Positions 26,697 to 46,529 of a stretch of 46,830 nt of DNA are shown in pieces; positions within the stretch are counted from its first letter, which is position 1; each line of letters opens with the position of its first letter. Position numbers and translations under genes: made by a program. Under the pieces are notes generated by a model. That model ran no database searches. It had not been told where the DNA came from and worked only from the letters and a program-made list of their open reading frames with translations. This stretch comes from a virus. The stretch spans positions 1-46,830 of the IMG/VR virus record IMGVR_UViG_3300047321_000335, one strand, 5' to 3'.

Positions 26697-27977
26697 TTAC
26701 GGATTCTGGATTAGGTCGGAGGCCGCGCCAGTCACGGCCTCGGCACCATTGTGAGAATTTCCGTTTCCATCGCCTTTGCACCCATGGATTGAGGCAAAAC
26801 CGCAAAGGTCTAAACGGGCATGCCACTTCTCCAGCGCCTCGCGCTTCAGTAACTCTGCGTGGGTATGGATGTAGGTCTGCACGTTTCTGGTCAGCGTGTG
26901 GTTCACCAGCATCTCACCGATGAGGTAGTCCACTCCGAGGTCCGTCCAGGCGGTTCGCGCCAGCTTACGAAGGTCGTGGCTCGTCCATTCGCCCTGGCCC
27001 AGCCGGGTGAACACGGCGCAGGCCTGGCCCTCGGTCATGGGTCGACCGCCCTTCGATGGGAACAGGTAGGCGCCCTCGTAGCCCTTGCTGATCTGCCATG
27101 CGCGATATCGCTTGAGCAGCCCGATCACCTGAGCGGTGAGAGGCAAACTATGTTCGCACCTGGTCTTGGTGTTCTCTGCCGGCATGTACCACTCGCCGGT
27201 TTCCGAGATGGTGAAGTGGGACCAGCGCGCCTGGCGGGTCTCGCCAATCCGTGTGCCGTGGCACAGCATCAACAAAGCAATGGTGCAGTCGGTGGGGCTG
27301 GCTTCGAATCCGGCGCCAAGGTTCGCGACCAGGGCCTCAACTTGAACACCGCGCAGACGTGCCGCTTTGGGCTTGATGCGGGCCTTGCTGAAGTCCGTGA
27401 ACTTGAACGCGGCGATAGGGTTGCTGGCTATCAGCTTCAGCTTTTCGGCCTGCTTGAACGCCACCACCAGCACGCCCCACATCATGCGAACGTAGGACAG
27501 CGACAACTCTTCCTGCATTGGCCACATGGCGGCGCTGTCGAGAGAGGACCTCGTGACGTCGGCGATCGGCATGGTGCTGAGCCGCGGCGCCAGGTGGCAC
27601 TGGATTGCCGAAGCCGCTGACGTGCGGCGCTTCTTGGAAAGGCTGCGGTCGCGGGACTGCCGCTCGCTGTACCATTCCAGCAGCTCGCCAACAGTGTGCA
27701 GAGTTCCTGCGGCGGCCGAGGCCTTGGGATCAACAGCGAGTCGGGCGTGCACTTGCGGCAACACGCCGGCCAGCGCCTTGAACGTCAGCGACGGGTAGCC
27801 TCCCACCTGGTTCCACTTTTTCTTCGAAACCAAGTACCAGGTGCCGCGATCACGGTTGAGGTTGAAGCGCAGGTAAAGCCCCGGGAACCTTGGATCGCGA
27901 AGGTGCTGGCAATCGCTGTTGGCAGCTTGCCGGCGGATCTCCGCATCTGAAAATTGGACCACCATGACATTGCTCAT
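26697..27977 (-). CDS. Second tyrosine recombinase, inside the early operon
   Basis: The 426-residue product has all residues of an active tyrosine recombinase: Arg243 in GTRIGETRQARW, HDLR (His334, Arg337), His360 in MLVNHTL and Tyr369 in VQTYIHTH. The N-terminal part includes a DUF4102-like start (FPGLYLRFNLNRDRGTWYLV) and a core-binding domain at about 95-200. The start at 27977 overlaps the VRR-NUC stop (ATGA) and has GAGGG upstream. It sits among replication and nin genes, far from either att site, so it is not the obvious integrase. It could resolve multimers, act in recombination or be a relic of another element. Confidence 0.88.
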   Translation of the reverse strand: MSNVMVVQFSDAEIRRQAANSDCQHLRDPRFPGLYLRFNLNRDRGTWYLVSKKKWNQVGGYPSLTFKALAGVLPQVHARLAVDPKASAAAGTLHTVGELLEWYSERQSRDRSLSKKRRTSAASAIQCHLAPRLSTMPIADVTRSSLDSAAMWPMQEELSLSYVRMMWGVLVVAFKQAEKLKLIASNPIAAFKFTDFSKARIKPKAARLRGVQVEALVANLGAGFEASPTDCTIALLMLCHGTRIGETRQARWSHFTISETGEWYMPAENTKTRCEHSLPLTAQVIGLLKRYRAWQISKGYEGAYLFPSKGGRPMTEGQACAVFTRLGQGEWTSHDLRKLARTAWTDLGVDYLIGEMLVNHTLTRNVQTYIHTHAELLKREALEKWHARLDLCGFASIHGCKGDGNGNSHNGAEAVTGAASDLIQNP

Positions 27978-28405
27978 GCGGAAACCCTCGTTGGCGGCTG
28001 GAGCAGATACGCCCGCAGGCACTCCAGCGCATCGATGTGTCCACGGCACACCACCGCGAGATACCCCTGACCGATCAGGGCCTGAATGTAGGCGTCCTGG
28101 CTGGCCGACACCGCAGCGTCGAACGGCGGCATGGCCTTGAACTCGATGTACAGGCCGAAGTGCCCACCGCGCGCCATTGGCAGGACCAGGTCCGGTACGC
28201 CGGCCTTCACGCCCTGCCCTTTCAGCTTGATCGCCACCAGCTTGTGCCGGTGGCCGCCGTTGGGCACGTGGTAGATCAGCTTGAAGGCTTCGGGATAGCG
28301 CAACTCGACCTCGCGCAGCAGCGCGGCCTGCTCCTGGCCTTCCCGGTCAGCGGGCTTGGCACGGGTGGCGCGCGGGCCGAAGGCTTTCATGGCGGCGGCT
28401 TTCAC
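27974..28405 (-). CDS. VRR-NUC domain nuclease
   Basis: The 143-residue product has YHVPNGGHRH, GVKAGVPDLVLP and LYIEFKA, the conserved parts of the VRR-NUC (PD-(D/E)xK) fold, plus AYIQALIGQGYLAVVCRG at the end. Such stand-alone phage enzymes are related to Holliday-junction and flap nucleases (FAN1 family) and may process replication or recombination intermediates. It starts with a GTG overlapping the upstream stop; an ATG at 28390 is an alternative. Confidence 0.88.
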   Translation of the reverse strand: MKAAAMKAFGPRATRAKPADREGQEQAALLREVELRYPEAFKLIYHVPNGGHRHKLVAIKLKGQGVKAGVPDLVLPMARGGHFGLYIEFKAMPPFDAAVSASQDAYIQALIGQGYLAVVCRGHIDALECLRAYLLQPPTRVSA

Positions 28406-29918: not shown

Positions 29919-30697
29919 AAGCGAACCCCCTTAGCGGCCCAGTCGGCCGACGCTTCACTGGCGGCGCTCTCGGTGGCCTGGCGCTTGATCCACTTGGCCA
30001 GGCGGTGGCACCAGCCAGCATCGGTGTCGCGGATGTCTGGCTTGGCAATGTGGAAGCCAATGAACGAGCCGAAAATCTCTTCGGTCAGCGCCGCAGTGAT
30101 GCCCATGATCTGGAGCTGAGCGGCGAGCACAGCACCGTTTGCGTTCCAGTCGGCGAACATCGAGAAGCGCTGGCGGGTGTCAGTGAGTGATTGCAGTTGC
30201 TCGAGCACTTCGCGGTCTTGCTCATCGGCAACGTCCGCAAACACGTGCGGCTGCTGCTGTTCGGTTACTTGATGGTTAAGTGATGTATTGGGTGCAGATT
30301 CTGCACCCCGGTCGGTCGTAGGCTGCACCCCGTTCTGCTGTGAATTGCACCCCGTGCGGTTATCTGCACCCCGCTCGGAACGAGGTGCGGGATTTGCACC
30401 CCGCTTGATTGGAAGGTCATACACCACAGGCCGGCGGTCATGGCGTTCGATGTAGACGGCGGCCAATGCCTGGTTACCCGGAACGATCCAACCAGACACC
30501 CGCAGCACGTCGAGTTTGGCCCGCACGGTGCGCTCGGACAGGCCGGTGTCATCGCTCAAGGTGTTGGCAGAAGGAAAGGCGCCGCGACCATCAGTGCCGG
30601 CGTAGTTGGCCAAGCACAGCAGCACATGGCGCGCGCTCGAATCGGTCAGAGAGGCCTTGGGGATTTGAAGCGCCCATGACATGGCTTGAACACTCAC
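29915..30697 (-). CDS. O: Replication initiator O, with the origin inside its gene
   Basis: The 260-residue product has an N-terminal winged-helix domain (SLTDSSARHVLLCLANYA..., TLSDDTGLSERTVRAKLDVL) that should bind the iterons. A linker encoded by those iterons follows (about 95-135, with repeated Gly-Ala or Gly-Cys phrases) and then a C-terminal domain (about 165-260) for contact with P. The start is a GTG overlapping the antirepressor stop and lies 8 bases after GGAG. The layout is that of lambda O. Confidence 0.88.
   Translation of the reverse strand: MSVQAMSWALQIPKASLTDSSARHVLLCLANYAGTDGRGAFPSANTLSDDTGLSERTVRAKLDVLRVSGWIVPGNQALAAVYIERHDRRPVVYDLPIKRGANPAPRSERGADNRTGCNSQQNGVQPTTDRGAESAPNTSLNHQVTEQQQPHVFADVADEQDREVLEQLQSLTDTRQRFSMFADWNANGAVLAAQLQIMGITAALTEEIFGSFIGFHIAKPDIRDTDAGWCHRLAKWIKRQATESAASEASADWAAKGVRL
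30260..30403. other. Replication origin: iterons inside gene O
   Basis: Five copies of YTGCACCCCG lie at 30301, 30323, 30345, 30364 and 30394 (plus-strand starts), with spacings of 22, 22, 19 and 30. An inverted half copy, GGGTGCAG, lies at 30290-30297. The side towards the O gene's 3' end (30260-30290) is comparatively AT-rich and may be the unwinding region. Confidence 0.8.
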
Positions 30698-31434
30698 AAT
30701 GCAGCTCCAATCTTTTCAGCGAGCACGACGAGGCCCCGGCGGGTAACCATCACCTGCTCGACAACCTTCAGCTCTTCGGATTCGTTGTTAGGGATGCGGA
30801 CCAGCTTGTGCTCAAGCAGGCCAGCGGTAAGGCGCGGCTGGAAGGCCGACCAATTGGCGAAGCTGGTACGGCGATAGATCCAGCGATTGGTAGACAGCCA
30901 AGCGAACAGCTTCAAAGGCCCCATGCCCAGGTGCTTGGCCGCCTCGGTGACACAGATCGAGCCGCGCGTTTCGCTCAGGATCTGGAGCGCGGCGACCTTG
31001 GGGGCCTGCTGCTCGATCACTTGGTGAAGGTGCTGGTTCTCGCGAGCTTGGTCGGCGGCGACCTGCAATGCCTCGGCGAAGTTGGTCGGCACGCGCGGTT
31101 GTTGAGCCTGGTCTTCCAGTTCGCGCCAGCGGCGTACGACCGCGATACGCATCTTCGCGCTGTAGCCGGTGAGCAGGGTATCGGTGAGGTCGCGATCAAG
31201 GCTGATCTCGGCGGTGTAGCCTCGGGCGTCCTTTACCTCGTGGACATGATCCAAAGATGGATCATCCTTCAGCGACTCAAGAATCTTGCGAATATCGCGC
31301 AGCACATGGTGGTGCCCCTTACCGGTCAATTCTGCAATCTCTCGAGACGACATCAACTGACGCGTCATGTTTTGGCTGATTGAGAAAACTGACGAATCAG
31401 GCTGGGTATTGCGGGGAGCGATCTGGTTATGCAT
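30694..31434 (-). CDS. Phage antirepressor, Rha and KilA-C domains
   Basis: The 246-residue product has an N-terminal Rha domain (MSSREIAELTGKGHHHVLRDIRKIL, then YTAEISLDRDLTDTLLTGYSAKMRIAVVRRW). The C-terminal part is the KilA-C/Ant DNA-binding domain (VTEAAKHLGMGPLKLFAWLSTNRWIYRR, FQPRLTAGLLEHKLVRI). Such proteins counter repressors or regulate early genes. The ATG at 31434 follows GAGG. It lies between cII-like and O genes. Confidence 0.88.
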   Translation of the reverse strand: MHNQIAPRNTQPDSSVFSISQNMTRQLMSSREIAELTGKGHHHVLRDIRKILESLKDDPSLDHVHEVKDARGYTAEISLDRDLTDTLLTGYSAKMRIAVVRRWRELEDQAQQPRVPTNFAEALQVAADQARENQHLHQVIEQQAPKVAALQILSETRGSICVTEAAKHLGMGPLKLFAWLSTNRWIYRRTSFANWSAFQPRLTAGLLEHKLVRIPNNESEELKVVEQVMVTRRGLVVLAEKIGAAL

Positions 31435-37569: not shown

Positions 37570-37598
37570 ACTATACCCGCGAGGATGCCGCATGTCCG
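37570..37598 (-). promoter_or_regulatory. Promoter of the AT-rich moron gene
   Basis: On the minus strand, CGGACA (37593-37598) and TATAGT (37570-37575) lie 17 bases apart. The -35 overlaps the start of the methyltransferase gene, so the two may interfere. It should be active in the lysogen, as no operator is visible. Confidence 0.62.
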
Positions 37599-39637
37599 CA
37601 CATCAGAAGAAACATCTGCTCGAATTCAAAACCCAGTATGGCCTTGGCTTCGACCCAATAGACGATGAGATCGTGGTGGACTTCTTCTGTGGTGGCGGCG
37701 GCGCCGGTACCGGGCTGGAGATGGGCCTGGGCCGCGCGGTGACCGTGGCCAAAAACCACAACCCTGCAGCGATCAGCATGCACACCGCCAACCACCCGGC
37801 GGCCCGGCACTACACCACCGACGTGTTCGAGGGTGACCCTGACGAGGAATGCGGCGGGCGGGCCGTGGGCTGGTTCCACATGAGCCCCGACTGCACCCAC
37901 CACAGCCAGGCAGCCGGTGGTCAGCCGCGCAAGCGCGAGATCCGCAACCTTTCGTGGATCGGACTGAAATGGGCCGGCAAGAAACGGCCACGGGTCATCA
38001 GCTTGGAAAATGTTAAGCAGATCCTGCAATGGGGCCCGCTGATCGCCAAGCGCGACAAGGCCACCGGGCGGGTGATGAAGCTGGGCGGCCAGGTCGCTGC
38101 CCCGGGCGAGGTCGTGCCAGTGCATGAGCAGTTTCTGGTGCCCGACCCGAAACGCCGCGGCACCACCTGGCGCCGATTCGTTGCACTGCTGGAAGGCATG
38201 GGCTACGCCGTCGAGTGGCGGGTGATCAAGGCCTGCGACTTCGGCGCGCCGACCAGCCGGGAGCGCCTGTTCATGATCGCCCGGTGCGACGGCCAGCCCA
38301 TCGTGTGGCCCGAAGCAACCCACACCCGCCAGCCTGCCAAGGGCCAGCAGAAGTGGCGCACCGCCGCCGACTGCATCGACTGGACAGTGCCAAGCAAAAG
38401 CATCTTCGGTCGCAAGAAGGACCTGGCCCCGGCCACCCTTCGCCGCGTTGCCAAGGGGTTGAAGAAGTTCGTCATCGACAGCGCCAGCCCATTCATTGTG
38501 CCGATCGCGAATTGGTCCGGCGAGCTGGCCCAGTCTGCCAATGAACCGCTGCGCACCGTTACCGCCTGGCCGCGTGGTGGGTCGTTTGCCATGGCCAGCC
38601 CCATCATCGCCCCGGCCACCCACCAGGGCAGCGACCGCGTAAACGATCCGGGCTCACCTCTGCCGACCGTTACCTGCGCCAACCGTGGCGAACTGACCCT
38701 GATCAGCCCCGTAATGGTCGGTGTCGGCGGGCGCGCTGGGCAGACGGAGCCACGCCCAGGTAATCAGCCGGCCTACACCATCACCGCCAAGGCCGACACG
38801 GCGATCGCGGCGGCGCACCTGGTGAAGTTCCGGTTCGACGATGCGGGCAAAGCGCTCGACGAACCCTTGCCGACCATAACCAGCGGTGGCAACTACCAGC
38901 GCCCGGCCGGCGCCGCACATGCCATGGGTGTCTGTACGGCATTCATGGCCCAGATGAACGGCGGCTTCAACACCACCGACGCCAAGCCGCTGGACGAGCC
39001 AATGACCACGGTCACCAACACCGGAAGTCAGCAACAGCTGGTCACCGCCAACCTCGTGCACTTCCGCGGTAATTGCGATGCGCGGGCCGCTGAAGACCCA
39101 CTGCACACTGTCAGCGCCGGCGGCACCCACCACGGCTTGATGACCGCATTCATGGAGCGCCAGTTCGGCGCGAGCATCGGCCAGGCAATCGACGAGCCAG
39201 CGCCAACCATAACGGCGGGCGGCGGCGGGAAAAGCTCGCTGGTTGAGCTGAAGCTCTCTCCTGAGCACGAAGAAGGCGCCCTGCGCGTCGCCGCGTTCCT
39301 GATCAGCTACTACGGCACCGAGAACATGAGCGGCTGCGACAAGCCCACGCCGACCATCACCACCAAGGATCGGCTGGGCCTGGTGACCGTGATCGTCAAG
39401 GGCACCCCGTACGTGATCGTCGACATCTGCCTGCGGATGCTGCAGCCGCACGAGCTGTATCGCGCCCAGGGCTTCCCCGCTGACTACATCATCGACAAGG
39501 GCGCCGACGGCCGGAAGTTCACGAAGACCGAGCAGGTGCATATGTGTGGCAACAGCGTCAGCCCACCGCCCATGGCCGCGCTGGCCCGGGCGAACGATCC
39601 ATGGCGCAAAAGCGAGAGCCAGGCGGAGGCAGCATGA
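37592..39637 (+). CDS. Large cytosine-5 DNA methyltransferase with a repeated recognition region
   Basis: The 681-residue product has C5-methyltransferase motif I (VDFFCGGGGAGTGLE, 29-43), the catalytic cysteine in MSPDCTHHS (Cys101, a PDC variant of the usual PC), ENV (139-141), FGAPTSRERLFMIAR (217-231), LQPHELYRAQGFP (617-629) and motif X MCGNSVSPP. Between about 310 and 600, where a target-recognition domain lies, there are eight copies of a (D/N)xPxxT(I/V)(T/S) phrase, 30-50 residues apart. It should methylate phage and host DNA against restriction. No partner nuclease gene is visible. GAGG precedes the start. Confidence 0.93.
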   Translation: MSAHQKKHLLEFKTQYGLGFDPIDDEIVVDFFCGGGGAGTGLEMGLGRAVTVAKNHNPAAISMHTANHPAARHYTTDVFEGDPDEECGGRAVGWFHMSPDCTHHSQAAGGQPRKREIRNLSWIGLKWAGKKRPRVISLENVKQILQWGPLIAKRDKATGRVMKLGGQVAAPGEVVPVHEQFLVPDPKRRGTTWRRFVALLEGMGYAVEWRVIKACDFGAPTSRERLFMIARCDGQPIVWPEATHTRQPAKGQQKWRTAADCIDWTVPSKSIFGRKKDLAPATLRRVAKGLKKFVIDSASPFIVPIANWSGELAQSANEPLRTVTAWPRGGSFAMASPIIAPATHQGSDRVNDPGSPLPTVTCANRGELTLISPVMVGVGGRAGQTEPRPGNQPAYTITAKADTAIAAAHLVKFRFDDAGKALDEPLPTITSGGNYQRPAGAAHAMGVCTAFMAQMNGGFNTTDAKPLDEPMTTVTNTGSQQQLVTANLVHFRGNCDARAAEDPLHTVSAGGTHHGLMTAFMERQFGASIGQAIDEPAPTITAGGGGKSSLVELKLSPEHEEGALRVAAFLISYYGTENMSGCDKPTPTITTKDRLGLVTVIVKGTPYVIVDICLRMLQPHELYRAQGFPADYIIDKGADGRKFTKTEQVHMCGNSVSPPPMAALARANDPWRKSESQAEAA

Positions 39638-41244: not shown

Positions 41245-41349
41245 ATGCGAGCTCTATCGATGCTTATCGGCGCCTGCATTCTCATCGCCCTCGTGATCTA
41301 CGGCGGCTTCTGCTTCTACCAACACATCAAAGGAATCAAAAAACCATGA
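41245..41349 (+). CDS. Micro membrane protein upstream of the SPFH gene
   Basis: A 34-residue frame (MRALSMLIGACILIALVIYGG...) is one membrane helix followed by FYQHIKGIKKP. Its ribosome site is in the repeated leader element, and it ends in an ATGA overlap with the SPFH gene, so the two are coupled and may act together. Confidence 0.65.
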   Translation: MRALSMLIGACILIALVIYGGFCFYQHIKGIKKP

Positions 41350-42197
41350 AGAAAATTGTCGGTCTTTCGGCTGCTGGCTTGCTGGGAGTGATCCTGCTGT
41401 GCGTCTTCTTCGGCAGCTGGTACACGGTGGACGAAACGGAACGCGGCGTGCTGCTGCGGAACGGGGCCATGGTCGGTGTCGTCGAGCCAGGTCTGAGCTT
41501 TAAGACGCCCTTCATCGAGTCCGTCCGCCTCATCAGCGTGCAAAGCCAGGCCACCAAATACCCGAACCTGCAGGCCTACTCCAAGGATCAGCAGACGGCG
41601 AAGCTGCAGGTGTCGGTCAGCTGGCATATCCCGCCGAGTGAGGTGGCAAAGGTCTACACCAGCTTCAAAGACCTTGACGGAATCAGCGACCGGCTCATTG
41701 CCAGGCAGATCCCCACGCAGGTTGAGAACGTTTTCGGCCAGTACACGGCGGTATCGGCGGTGCAAAACCGGGGGCAGTTCGTTGCTGATGTGACGAAGGC
41801 GATCCGCGCTGCAGTAGTCGGCCCGGTAGTTATCGACGGCGTGCAGGTCGAGAACATCGATTTCAGTGACGACTACGAGCGATCCATCGCCCTGCGCATG
41901 AAGGCTGAAGTCGAGGTCAAGACCCGCGAGCAGATGCTGCAGACCGAACAGGTGCAGGCGCAGATCCGTGTGACCCAGGCACAAGCCGAAGCCGACTCAA
42001 AGGTGGCTCAGGCCAAGGCGGATGCCGAAGCTACACGTCTGCGCGGTAACGCTGAAGCTGACGCCATCCAGGCTAAGGCCAAGGCACTGGCCAGCAATCA
42101 GAACCTCGTGGAGCTGACCAAGGCCGAGCGGTGGAATGGCGTACTGCCGACCACAATGCTGCCGAACAGCGCCGTGCCGTTCATAGAAGCTAAGTAA
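41346..42197 (+). CDS. SPFH (band 7/prohibitin-like) membrane protein
   Basis: The 283-residue product has a membrane segment at 5-25 and an SPFH domain at about 26-185 (SWYTVDETERGVLLRNGAMVGVVEPGLSF, KLQVSVSWHIPPSEVAKVY). A charged coiled coil follows at about 185-255, with repeated Ala-Glu-Ala-Asp phrases. SPFH proteins form ring-like membrane scaffolds (as HflK/HflC around the FtsH protease). In lambda, HflKC and FtsH control CII stability, so a phage copy could affect protease action or the membrane; that is inference. Confidence 0.9.
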   Translation: MKKIVGLSAAGLLGVILLCVFFGSWYTVDETERGVLLRNGAMVGVVEPGLSFKTPFIESVRLISVQSQATKYPNLQAYSKDQQTAKLQVSVSWHIPPSEVAKVYTSFKDLDGISDRLIARQIPTQVENVFGQYTAVSAVQNRGQFVADVTKAIRAAVVGPVVIDGVQVENIDFSDDYERSIALRMKAEVEVKTREQMLQTEQVQAQIRVTQAQAEADSKVAQAKADAEATRLRGNAEADAIQAKAKALASNQNLVELTKAERWNGVLPTTMLPNSAVPFIEAK

Positions 42198-43444: not shown

Positions 43445-43476
43445 TATTAGACAATTCTCATTTGTCTAATAGACAG
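43445..43476. repeat. Inverted repeat between int and mutS (possible integrase arm or end of int mRNA)
   Basis: TATTAGACAA (43445-43454) and TTGTCTAATA (43462-43471) are perfectly complementary with a 7-base loop, starting directly after the int stop. A third TAGACAG follows at 43470-43476, matching 599-605 at the other end. TCTAAT (43465-43470) could serve as a -10 for mutS, but no good -35 is present. Confidence 0.65.
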
Positions 43477-43494
43477 ACCAGCGCAAGGCCCCGC

Positions 43495-46062
43495 ATGTCC
43501 GACCTCTCCAGCCACACCCCAATGATGCAGCAATACTGGAAGCTGAAAAACCAGCACCCGGACCAGCTGATGTTCTATCGCATGGGCGACTTCTACGAGA
43601 TTTTCTACGAAGACGCGAAGAAGGCCGCCAAGCTGCTCGACATTACCCTGACCGCGCGTGGGCAGTCGGCCGGGCAGTCGATTCCCATGTGCGGGATCCC
43701 CTACCACGCAGCCGAGGGTTACCTGGGCAAGCTGGTCAAACTCGGCGAGTCCGTAGTGATCTGCGAGCAGGTGGGCGATCCGGCGACCAGCAAGGGGCCT
43801 GTGGACCGGCAAGTGGTGCGCATCATCACGCCGGGTACGGTGAGTGACGAAGCGCTGCTGGACGAGCGCCGCGACAACCTCATAGCGGCGGTGCTCGGCG
43901 ACGAGCGTCTGTTCGGCCTGGCGGTGCTGGACATCACCAGTGGCAACTTCACCGTGCAGGAATTCAAGGGCTGGGAAAACCTCCTGGCGGAGCTTGAGCG
44001 CATCAATCCGGTCGAGCTGTTGATCCCGGATGACTGGCCTCAAGGCCTGCCGGCGGAAAAACGCCGGGGCGCACGCCGCCGCGCGCCGTGGGACTTCGAA
44101 CGCGACAGCGCCCACAAGAGCCTGTGTCAGCAATTCGCGACCCAGGACCTGAAAGGCTTCGGCTGCGAGAAGTTGACCCTGGCCATCGGCGCCGCCGGGT
44201 GCCTGCTGGGCTACGCGAAGGAAACCCAGCGCACAGCCCTGCCGCACCTGCGCAGCCTCAAACACGAACGTCTGGATGACACCGTGGTGCTGGATGCTGC
44301 CACTCGGCGCAATCTGGAGCTGGACATCAACCTGGCGGGCGGCCGCGAAAACACCCTGCAATCAGTAATCGATCGCTGCCAGACGGCCATGGGCAGCCGC
44401 CTGCTGACCCGCTGGCTGAATCGCCCGCTACGTGATCTGAAGATTCTCCAGGCACGCCAGGCGTCGATCCGCTGCCTGCTTGACGGCTATCGCTTCGAAG
44501 GCCTGCAGCCACGCCTAAAGGAAATTGGCGACATCGAGCGCATCCTTGCGCGTATCGGCTTGCGCAATGCTCGCCCTCGCGACTTGGCTCGCCTGCGCGA
44601 CGCCTTGGCTGCGTTGCCGGACCTGCAAGTTGCCATGGCCGATCTCGAGACCCCGCACCTGGCGCGCCTGGCGACGATCGCCGGCACCTACCCGGAGCTC
44701 TCCGAGCTGCTGGCCAAGGCCATCATCGACAACCCGCCTGCGGTGATTCGTGACGGCGGTGTACTCAAGACCGGCTACGACAGCGAGCTCGACGAGCTGC
44801 TGTCTCTGAGCGAGAACGCCGGGCAGTTTTTGATTGATCTCGAAGCCCGGGAAAAAGCCCGTACCGGCCTGTCGCACCTCAAGGTCGGCTACAACCGCGT
44901 GCACGGCTACTTTATCGAACTGCCGAGCAAACAGGCTGAGTCGGCGCCAGCGGACTATATCCGCCGCCAGACGCTCAAGGGCGCCGAGCGCTTCATCACC
45001 CCCGAGCTCAAGGCTTTCGAAGACAAGGCGCTGTCGGCCAAGAGCCGCGCCCTGGCCCGTGAAAAGATGCTCTACGAGGCTTTGCTGGAACGGCTCATCG
45101 GTCACCTGCCGCCGTTGCAGGACACCGCCGCAGCGCTGGCCGAGCTCGACGTGTTGAGCAACCTCGCCGAGCGCTCCCTGAACCTGGACCTCAACTGTCC
45201 CAGCTTCGTCGACGAGCCGTGCCTGCGTATCGGCCAAGGGCGTCACCCTGTGGTCGAGCAAGTGCTGACTACACCGTTCGTGGCCAATGACCTGCGCCTC
45301 GACGACGACACGCGCATGCTGGTCATCACCGGGCCTAACATGGGCGGTAAATCCACCTATATGCGCCAGACCGCACTGATCGTGCTGCTGGCCCATATCG
45401 GCAGCTTCGTGCCGGCCGCCAGCTGCGAGCTGTCACTGGTGGATCGGATCTTCACCCGTATCGGCTCCAGCGATGACCTCGCCGGCGGGCGTTCGACCTT
45501 CATGGTAGAAATGAGCGAGACCGCCAACATCCTGCACAACGCCAGCGATCGCAGCCTGGTGCTGATGGACGAAGTCGGCCGCGGCACCAGCACCTTCGAC
45601 GGCTTGTCGCTGGCCTGGGCGGCGGCTGAACGCCTTGCGCAACTGCGTGCCTATACGCTGTTCGCCACGCACTACTTCGAGCTCACGGTGCTGCCGGACA
45701 GCGAACCGCTGGTCGCCAACGTGCATCTCAATGCCACCGAACACAACGAGCGGATCGTGTTTTTGCACCATGTGCTGCCGGGCCCTGCGAGCCAAAGTTA
45801 TGGCCTGGCGGTGGCGCAACTGGCCGGCGTGCCGGAAGATGTCATTCGGCGCGCCAAGGAGCATCTGGGTCGACTCGAAACCACCAGCCTGCCCGTCGAG
45901 CCCGTACTCGCCAAACCCGGCAAACCCGCTGCGCCGCACCAGAGCGACCTGTTCGCCAGCCTGCCGCACCCGGTCCTGGACGAGATCGCCCGCACCGACA
46001 TCGATGGCCTGACACCAAGGCAGGCGATGGAATTGCTCTATACATTAAAGAACCGTATCTAA
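43495..46062 (+). CDS. mutS: DNA mismatch repair protein MutS, with a phage-derived start
   Basis: The 855-residue product is a full MutS: mismatch-binding domain with the Phe-x-Glu motif in [16 protein letters not shown] (residues 29-44), connector, lever and clamp domains, and an ATPase with Walker A GPNMGGKS (613-620), [14 protein letters not shown] (Walker B) and FATHYFELT. The first codons up to the ATGATGCAGCA core belong to the phage arm of attR and recode the host residues almost exactly. AAGG lies before the ATG; an in-frame TTG at 43462 is unlikely. The native promoter is now 43 kb away, so expression depends on phage-side sequences. Confidence 0.96.
43513..43535. other. attR core
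   Basis: This is the right copy of CACACCCC-N-ATGATGCAGCA. Left of it the mutS codons are phage-borne; right of it they are host. The exact crossover must lie in the 11 identical bases 43522-43532, or in CACACCCC (43513-43520). Confidence 0.8.
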
Positions 46063-46205: not shown

Positions 46206-46529
46206 ATGACCTTCGTCGTCACCGACAACTGCATCAAGTGCAAGTACACCGACTGCGTAGAAGTGTGTCCGGTGGACTGCTTTTACGAAGGCCCGAACTT
46301 CCTGGTCATTCACCCGGACGAGTGCATCGACTGCGCCCTGTGCGAGCCTGAATGCCCGGCCGTGGCAATTTTCTCGGAAGACGAAGTGCCTGCCGAGATG
46401 CAGGAGTTCATCGCCCTGAACGGAGAGCTGGCGGATATCTGGCCAAATATCACCGAGAAGAAAGAATCGATGCCTGATGCTGCCGAGTGGGATGGCAAAA
46501 AGGGCAAGATCGCTGACCTCGAACGCTGA
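46206..46529 (+). CDS. fdxA: 7Fe ferredoxin FdxA
   Basis: The 107-residue product has cysteines at 9, 12, 17, 21 and 25 and at 40, 43, 46 and 50 ([11 protein letters not shown]), the layout of [3Fe-4S][4Fe-4S] ferredoxins of the Azotobacter FdI type. The long acidic C-terminal extension (about 55-107) is also typical. It is a small electron carrier in the cytoplasm. In Pseudomonas it follows mutS, with rsmZ and rpoS usually next; those are not in this window. Confidence 0.95.

Follow-up and report, generated by a model that had tools for sequence, protein, structure and literature searches.

The methyltransferase described here is very probably a multispecific C5 enzyme of the SPR/phi3T kind, in which a greater number of target-recognition domains (TRDs) would serve as alternative units for one catalytic core. 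It is encoded in the window, the whole 46,830-nucleotide stretch of viral DNA analysed here (IMG/VR virus record IMGVR_UViG_3300047321_000335). That each of its eight units has a target of its own is likely, and is put forward with less assurance. The structure of the units and their placement, the homology among them, their exchange as cassettes, the near-absence of repeated types within a protein and the purifying selection acting on them are direct observations.

The methyltransferase and its eight-unit array

Conserved motifs I, IV, VI, VIII, IX and X follow one another in the correct order in the window ORF, whose Pfam and PHROG matches are given in Table 1. The AF2 model of the protein superposes on M.HhaI with a Z score of 25.1 over 294 residues at 3.0 Å, which corresponds to a class I methyltransferase fold. 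On its motifs and modelled fold, the window protein is a predicted DNA (cytosine-5) methyltransferase. The G-N of motif X is kept in the family. A DNA cytosine carboxymethyltransferase (Cx-SAM), 8yf3, was among the best fold matches of the window model and of the model of L418, a two-unit relative described below; it is one of many C5 methyltransferases matched, and no inference is drawn from it.

An earlier reading of this DNA from its sequence only had called the catalytic site unusual for carrying PDC in place of PC. This holds against canonical C5 methyltransferases, in which Pro directly precedes the Cys, but not within the family. S98, P99, D100 and C101 (PDC being residues 99–101) are invariant in 122 aligned relatives, and PDC is therefore a mark of the family rather than an oddity of the window protein.

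The same reading had described about eight repeats between the catalytic core and the C-terminal motifs, and the array was confirmed. A P-x-x-T-[IV]-[TS] core occurs eight times, its P standing at residues 319, 356, 393, 425, 470, 503, 536 and 585, so that successive cores are 37, 37, 32, 45, 33, 33 and 49 residues apart (range 32–49). Chance was ruled out as the origin of the repeated core by shuffling residues 235–605: the mean over 20,000 shuffles was 0.05 cores and the maximum was 2. The eight units lie between motif VIII and motif IX (window 38486–39391), which is the TRD position of C5 methyltransferases. An HMM of the unit, 33 positions long and built by iteration from the units of the window protein, recovers all eight with E values from 1.5e-3 to 2.6e-12. 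The stricter phrase first proposed, in which D or N stands two residues before the P, fits six of the eight copies.

Table 1. Features of the methyltransferase gene, with their nucleotide positions in the window.
Feature	Positions	Strand	Remarks
C5-cytosine DNA methyltransferase ORF	37592..39637	+	681 aa + stop; Pfam DNA_methylase (PF00145) E 3.3e-24; PHROG phrog_116 E 1.7e-102
Motif I (DFFCGGGGAGTG), SAM binding	37679..37714	+	Aligned with relatives
Motif IV, catalytic Cys (SPDCTHHS)	37883..37906	+	Asp in place of the usual Pro before Cys
Motif VI (SLENV)	38000..38014	+	
Motif VIII (TSRERLFMIA)	38252..38281	+	Residues 221-230; upstream border of TRD region
Unit 1, type 7 (IANWSGELAQSANE-PLRTVT)	38486..38596	+	Unit HMM E 1.6e-10
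Unit 2, type 6 (PATHQGSDRVNDPGS-PLPTVT)	38597..38704	+	Unit HMM E 3.9e-8
Unit 3, type 14 (VGVGGRAGQTEPRPGNQ-PAYTIT)	38705..38812	+	Unit HMM E 1.5e-3
Unit 4, type 5 (VKFRFDDAGKALDE-PLPTIT)	38813..38929	+	Unit HMM E 9.4e-12
Unit 5, type 4 (MAQMNGGFNTTDAKPLDE-PMTTVT)	38930..39046	+	Unit HMM E 7.5e-12
Unit 6, type 1 (VHFRGNCDARAAED-PLHTVS)	39047..39145	+	Unit HMM E 9.2e-12
Unit 7, type 2 (MERQFGASIGQAIDE-PAPTIT)	39146..39256	+	Unit HMM E 5.7e-11
Unit 8, type 3, terminal slot (LISYYGTENMSGCDK-PTPTIT)	39290..39391	+	Unit HMM E 2.6e-12
Motif IX (LRMLQPHELYRAQGFP)	39431..39478	+	Residues 614-629; downstream border of TRD region
Motif X (GNSVSPPP)	39548..39571	+	

Unit types and architectures in the family

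Relatives were gathered from contigs of viruses and bacteria as well as from phage and plasmid records, which gave 257 non-redundant proteins in addition to 18 reference proteins. The unit HMM found 1,802 units in these 275 deduplicated proteins. Each of the 257 phage or prophage relatives contains two to ten units, eight being the commonest count. Average-linkage clustering at a cut of 0.55 sorts the units into about 57 types, by which the window protein has the architecture 7-6-14-5-4-1-2-3. The same types recur in a differing order in elements of distant hosts. For instance, a Klebsiella phage carries 15-5-20-2-10-14-12 and a Brevibacillus plasmid 17-16-8-5-2-12-9, and a Psychrobacillus phage carries 23-9 only.

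There are 152 distinct architectures among 273 proteins, and 44 of the 383 co-occurring type pairs are found in both orders. The slot of unit 3, filled by type 14 in the window protein, is taken by type 11, 8 or 19 in relatives; the terminal slot is nearly always held by type 3 or 9. Types 1 and 12, and likewise types 3 and 9, never occur together where 20–30 co-occurrences would be expected, an absence that is confounded with phylogeny and slot and carries little weight here.

The units as putative target-recognition domains

TRDs of C5 methyltransferases share the consensus (YFW)X(RK)X5P(STCA)PT(ILV)(TASV)X5-16H(PFYWL), and their DNA-contacting segments, N-TL and C-TL, flank the TL directly on either side (PMC2413257). 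Across 32 unit types, entropy is about 0 at P, 0.2 at T and 1.3–1.5 at [IV][TS], and reaches about 3 bits before the TL and 2.7–3.0 bits in the four positions after it. The variability of the units thus peaks before and after the TL, coinciding with the segments where known TRDs contact DNA. Reading targets from the published N-TL/C-TL trimers (PMC2413257) was tried and dropped, the spacing within units being too variable.

A profile of the short members was aligned with M.HhaI, phi3T and SPR by hhalign at an overall E of 1.3e-12, most of which comes from the core. In this alignment the last unit of the short members is in register with the last TL site of SPR/phi3T, EPAFTVNTIDRHGVA, and AFLTKYYG...KEPLHTITTKDRFGLV is paired with VLTPER...GEPAFTVNTIDRHGVA. 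The unit so aligned is terminal type 9, which is related to the terminal type 3 of the window protein. The unit profile alone (32 unit types) gave no significant match by sequence to a solved TRD in the PDB, and its matches to SPR/phi3T are insignificant, though located at both TL sites of these enzymes. It is consequently profile-profile comparison, fold and position that tie the units to TRDs.

The fold was seen best in L418, a natural relative with two units, for which AF2 gave a pLDDT of 81. Strands 303–311 and 334–342 of its terminal unit flank the TL loop, and the model superposes on M.HhaI with Z 24.5 at about 3.1 Å over 285–288 of 327 residues. About 83 residues of M.HhaI make up its TRD, so this coverage includes much of the TRD. 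In the model of the window protein the core is good and some units are ordered, with most of the array below a pLDDT of 50. Structure prediction had been suggested as a check on whether each repeat forms its own recognition unit; the terminal unit of L418 is modelled as two strands around the TL loop, and the window array is largely of low confidence. Homology to TRDs was found for the terminal unit, through the profile alignment and the fold of the two-unit relative, and the internal units are linked to it by unit-to-unit homology only.

A continuous solenoid or beta-helix, serving non-specific DNA binding, a single long site or contact with a protein partner, would also fit homologous units spaced regularly at 32–49 residues and an array model of low confidence. 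Such a structure is very improbable. The number of units (2–10) and their order vary freely with the core unaffected, two-unit members are modelled as ordinary C5 methyltransferases with a unit-bearing TRD region, and repeated types would be expected in a solenoid. Separate target-recognition modules, as the sequence-only reading had proposed, are instead supported by the TRD position, the TL motif, the profile alignment and the L418 model, together with the exchange, non-repetition and selection of the units described below.

Exchange, non-repetition and selection of the units

The whole unit is the block in which sequence is gained, lost, exchanged or reordered, and the units change faster than the methyltransferase core. 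Where the cores of two proteins are at least 95% identical, the architecture is the same in 43 of 266 pairs. L198 and L184, for instance, have cores that are 100% identical and carry units 7-8-5-14-4-22-16-3 and 7-8-5-11-4-1-3, respectively. L116 and L133 are a natural pair that differs in a single unit (type 5 against type 21), as are L010 and L009 (type 8 against type 11). Compared as DNA, L116 and L133 have an identity of 0.9–1.0 in the flanks and of about 0.2–0.3 across the exchanged unit. In Pseudomonas aylmerensis S1E40, several contigs carry copies of the methyltransferase, related or truncated, that differ in their unit sets (L116, L133, L154, L155 and others), and these copies are possibly a natural pool for unit exchange inside one genome.

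A type is repeated within one protein in 1 of the 152 architectures, against 71–87 expected (87 when all units are shuffled). With internal units alone shuffled and the clustering cut-off set between 0.4 and 0.65, repeated types number 0–1 against 45–80 expected; for relatives whose cores are at least 75% identical to that of the window protein, they number 0–1 against 26–27. A cut-off of 0.7 merges distinct types and thereby creates apparent repeats, and the single repeat at 0.55, in L051, seems to be a separate LGNGDKPGS unit that was assigned to type 8. Recombination may also delete similar copies lying in tandem, which could account for part of the near-absence of repeated types.

Purifying selection acts on each of the eight units of the window protein. 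Their dN/dS lies at 0.07–0.21 against 0.12 in the core, as reckoned against mosaic relatives and with several dS values near saturation. Non-repetition and low dN/dS, taken together, are the strongest argument for a distinct and useful function in every unit.

Units of the same type are up to 83–89% identical across proteins whose cores are 45–50% identical, and units of different types share about 40% identity. The high identity within types despite such divergent cores, together with the low dN/dS, indicates that the unit sequences are selected. It leaves scarcely any credit to the idea that the units mainly serve recombination and that their variability is a by-product of tandem-repeat exchange with little functional consequence, even though the identity between types, the likeness of the flanking strands and the expected loss of same-type copies by recombination would suit it.

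It is also unlikely, although it deserves more serious thought, that one or few units, such as the near-fixed terminal unit, read DNA while the remaining ones serve as spacers or decoys or are remnants in decay, which would leave the enzyme one or few targets. All eight units are under core-like purifying selection; within a type the DNA-contact segments are conserved, exchange moves the unit as a whole, and types are not repeated, whereas spacers would not need to differ. On the other side stand the hold of types 3 and 9 on the terminal slot, the register of the terminal unit alone with the SPR/phi3T TL site, the existence of natural two-unit members and the ordering by AF2 of only some units of the window array.

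Genomic setting

The window is a lambda-like Pseudomonas prophage with a minus-strand structural block of tail fibre J, tape measure, capsid, portal and terminase genes. The neighbours of the methyltransferase gene are small genes of no assigned function together with a DUF2303 and a Band_7 protein. The latter, a Band_7/SPFH membrane protein in the prophage early region, is encoded at 41346–42197 (+; Pfam E 1.9e-30), and a pRha/KilAC anti-repressor is found at 30694–31434 (−). At the right end lie a phage integrase (42467–43441, +), a complete mutS (43462–46062, +) and a ferredoxin-like gene (46206–46529, +). The last two are apparently host flank, which suggests that the prophage is integrated beside mutS. 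A second integrase-like ORF (26697–28049, −; phrog_1, E 2.7e-50) lies deep within the prophage, where the structural block ends, and could be the sign of a second element or of a composite prophage.

No restriction endonuclease was recognised adjoining the methyltransferase in the window or in the common neighbour clusters of 90 related Pseudomonas-type loci, in which integrase, RecT, YqaJ and an N4/N6 methyltransferase recur. The window methyltransferase is an orphan, phage-borne modification gene.

Proposed mechanism and significance

We propose that one catalytic core (motifs I–VIII and IX–X) carries eight tandem recognition modules of about 33–39 residues, each probably a small strand-loop-strand element. 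Bases would be read, as they are in M.HhaI and M.HaeIII, by the variable stretch that precedes the TL core and by the short one that follows it. Because there is a single TRD slot, one unit at a time would dock in it, and the enzyme would methylate every site that any of its units recognises, though some units may be inactive. Units would be swapped as cassettes among related phage methyltransferases through recombination in the similar flanking strands, and a phage could in this way refresh its choice of hidden restriction sites. The role of the enzyme would be to protect phage DNA against many restriction enzymes, as its orphan phage setting and work on other phage methyltransferases, for example the adenine enzymes of lactococcal 936-type phages (PMC4190342), suggest.

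From these findings, a large family of enzymes in Pseudomonas, enterobacterial and other prophages would appear to work like the Bacillus multispecific enzymes, with up to about ten units drawn from a common pool of about 57 types, hardly ever used twice in one protein. The chances seem evenly balanced for the broader proposition that temperate phages and plasmids share a combinatorial library of dozens of interchangeable cassettes, in non-redundant sets of up to ten per enzyme, with up to about ten unrelated motifs methylated by a single enzyme and the sets renewed faster than the core evolves. If the multispecific reading is true, it would explain how a single gene might bring a phage past many restriction systems at the same time. 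The units would be natural, ready-made parts for methyltransferases of chosen specificity, and a code relating unit type to DNA motif could be read from the methylomes of natural variants differing in a single unit.

Comparison with known systems

Since the 1980s, a few Bacillus phages have been known to encode multispecific C5 methyltransferases. The phi3T and SPR enzymes have two or three TRDs, whereas the window enzyme has eight units and its family two to ten. That tandem TRDs give these Bacillus phage enzymes multiple targets is established (PMC8936443; also PMC2413257). SPR and phi3T/SPbeta, whose relatives include rho11s, H2 and M.BssHII, resemble the window enzyme in being phage-encoded, with one core and with tandem TRDs between motifs VIII and IX that each bear a TL motif. 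They differ in having PC at the catalytic site where the window family has DC, and overall sequence identity is low. M.HhaI and M.HaeIII share the core fold and the TL-type recognition loop, yet they are monospecific, with one TRD, one target and Pro-Cys in motif IV.

The gene 10 product of Pseudomonas phage F116, annotated as a DNA cytosine methyltransferase, is 68% identical to the window protein over its full length and shares unit types 7, 6, 14, 5, 4, 1 and 3. Its order is 7-8-6-14-5-4-1-3, which differs from that of the window protein by an extra type 8 before type 6 and by the lack of type 2. Gene 10 is flanked by two adenine methyltransferase genes and is an orphan like the window gene. 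The adenine-cytosine-adenine methyltransferase triplet of F116 (L163; 5150–8867), with overlapping ends, is an apparent modification operon. Functional data on the gene 10 product were not found in the open literature searched; likewise, a description of the window family as multi-TRD was not found in open papers, the original Trautner papers and REBASE being outside the search.

Unlike SPR/phi3T, the window family has about 57 unit types recombined over Pseudomonas, enterobacterial, Burkholderia, Brevibacillus and other elements, and its spread over phages, prophages and plasmids with a shared set of cassettes sets it apart from the Bacillus phage enzymes. What differs from those enzymes is the larger number of units, the DC of motif IV, the wide spread and the shared cassettes, and the window enzyme appears to be the same kind of machine.
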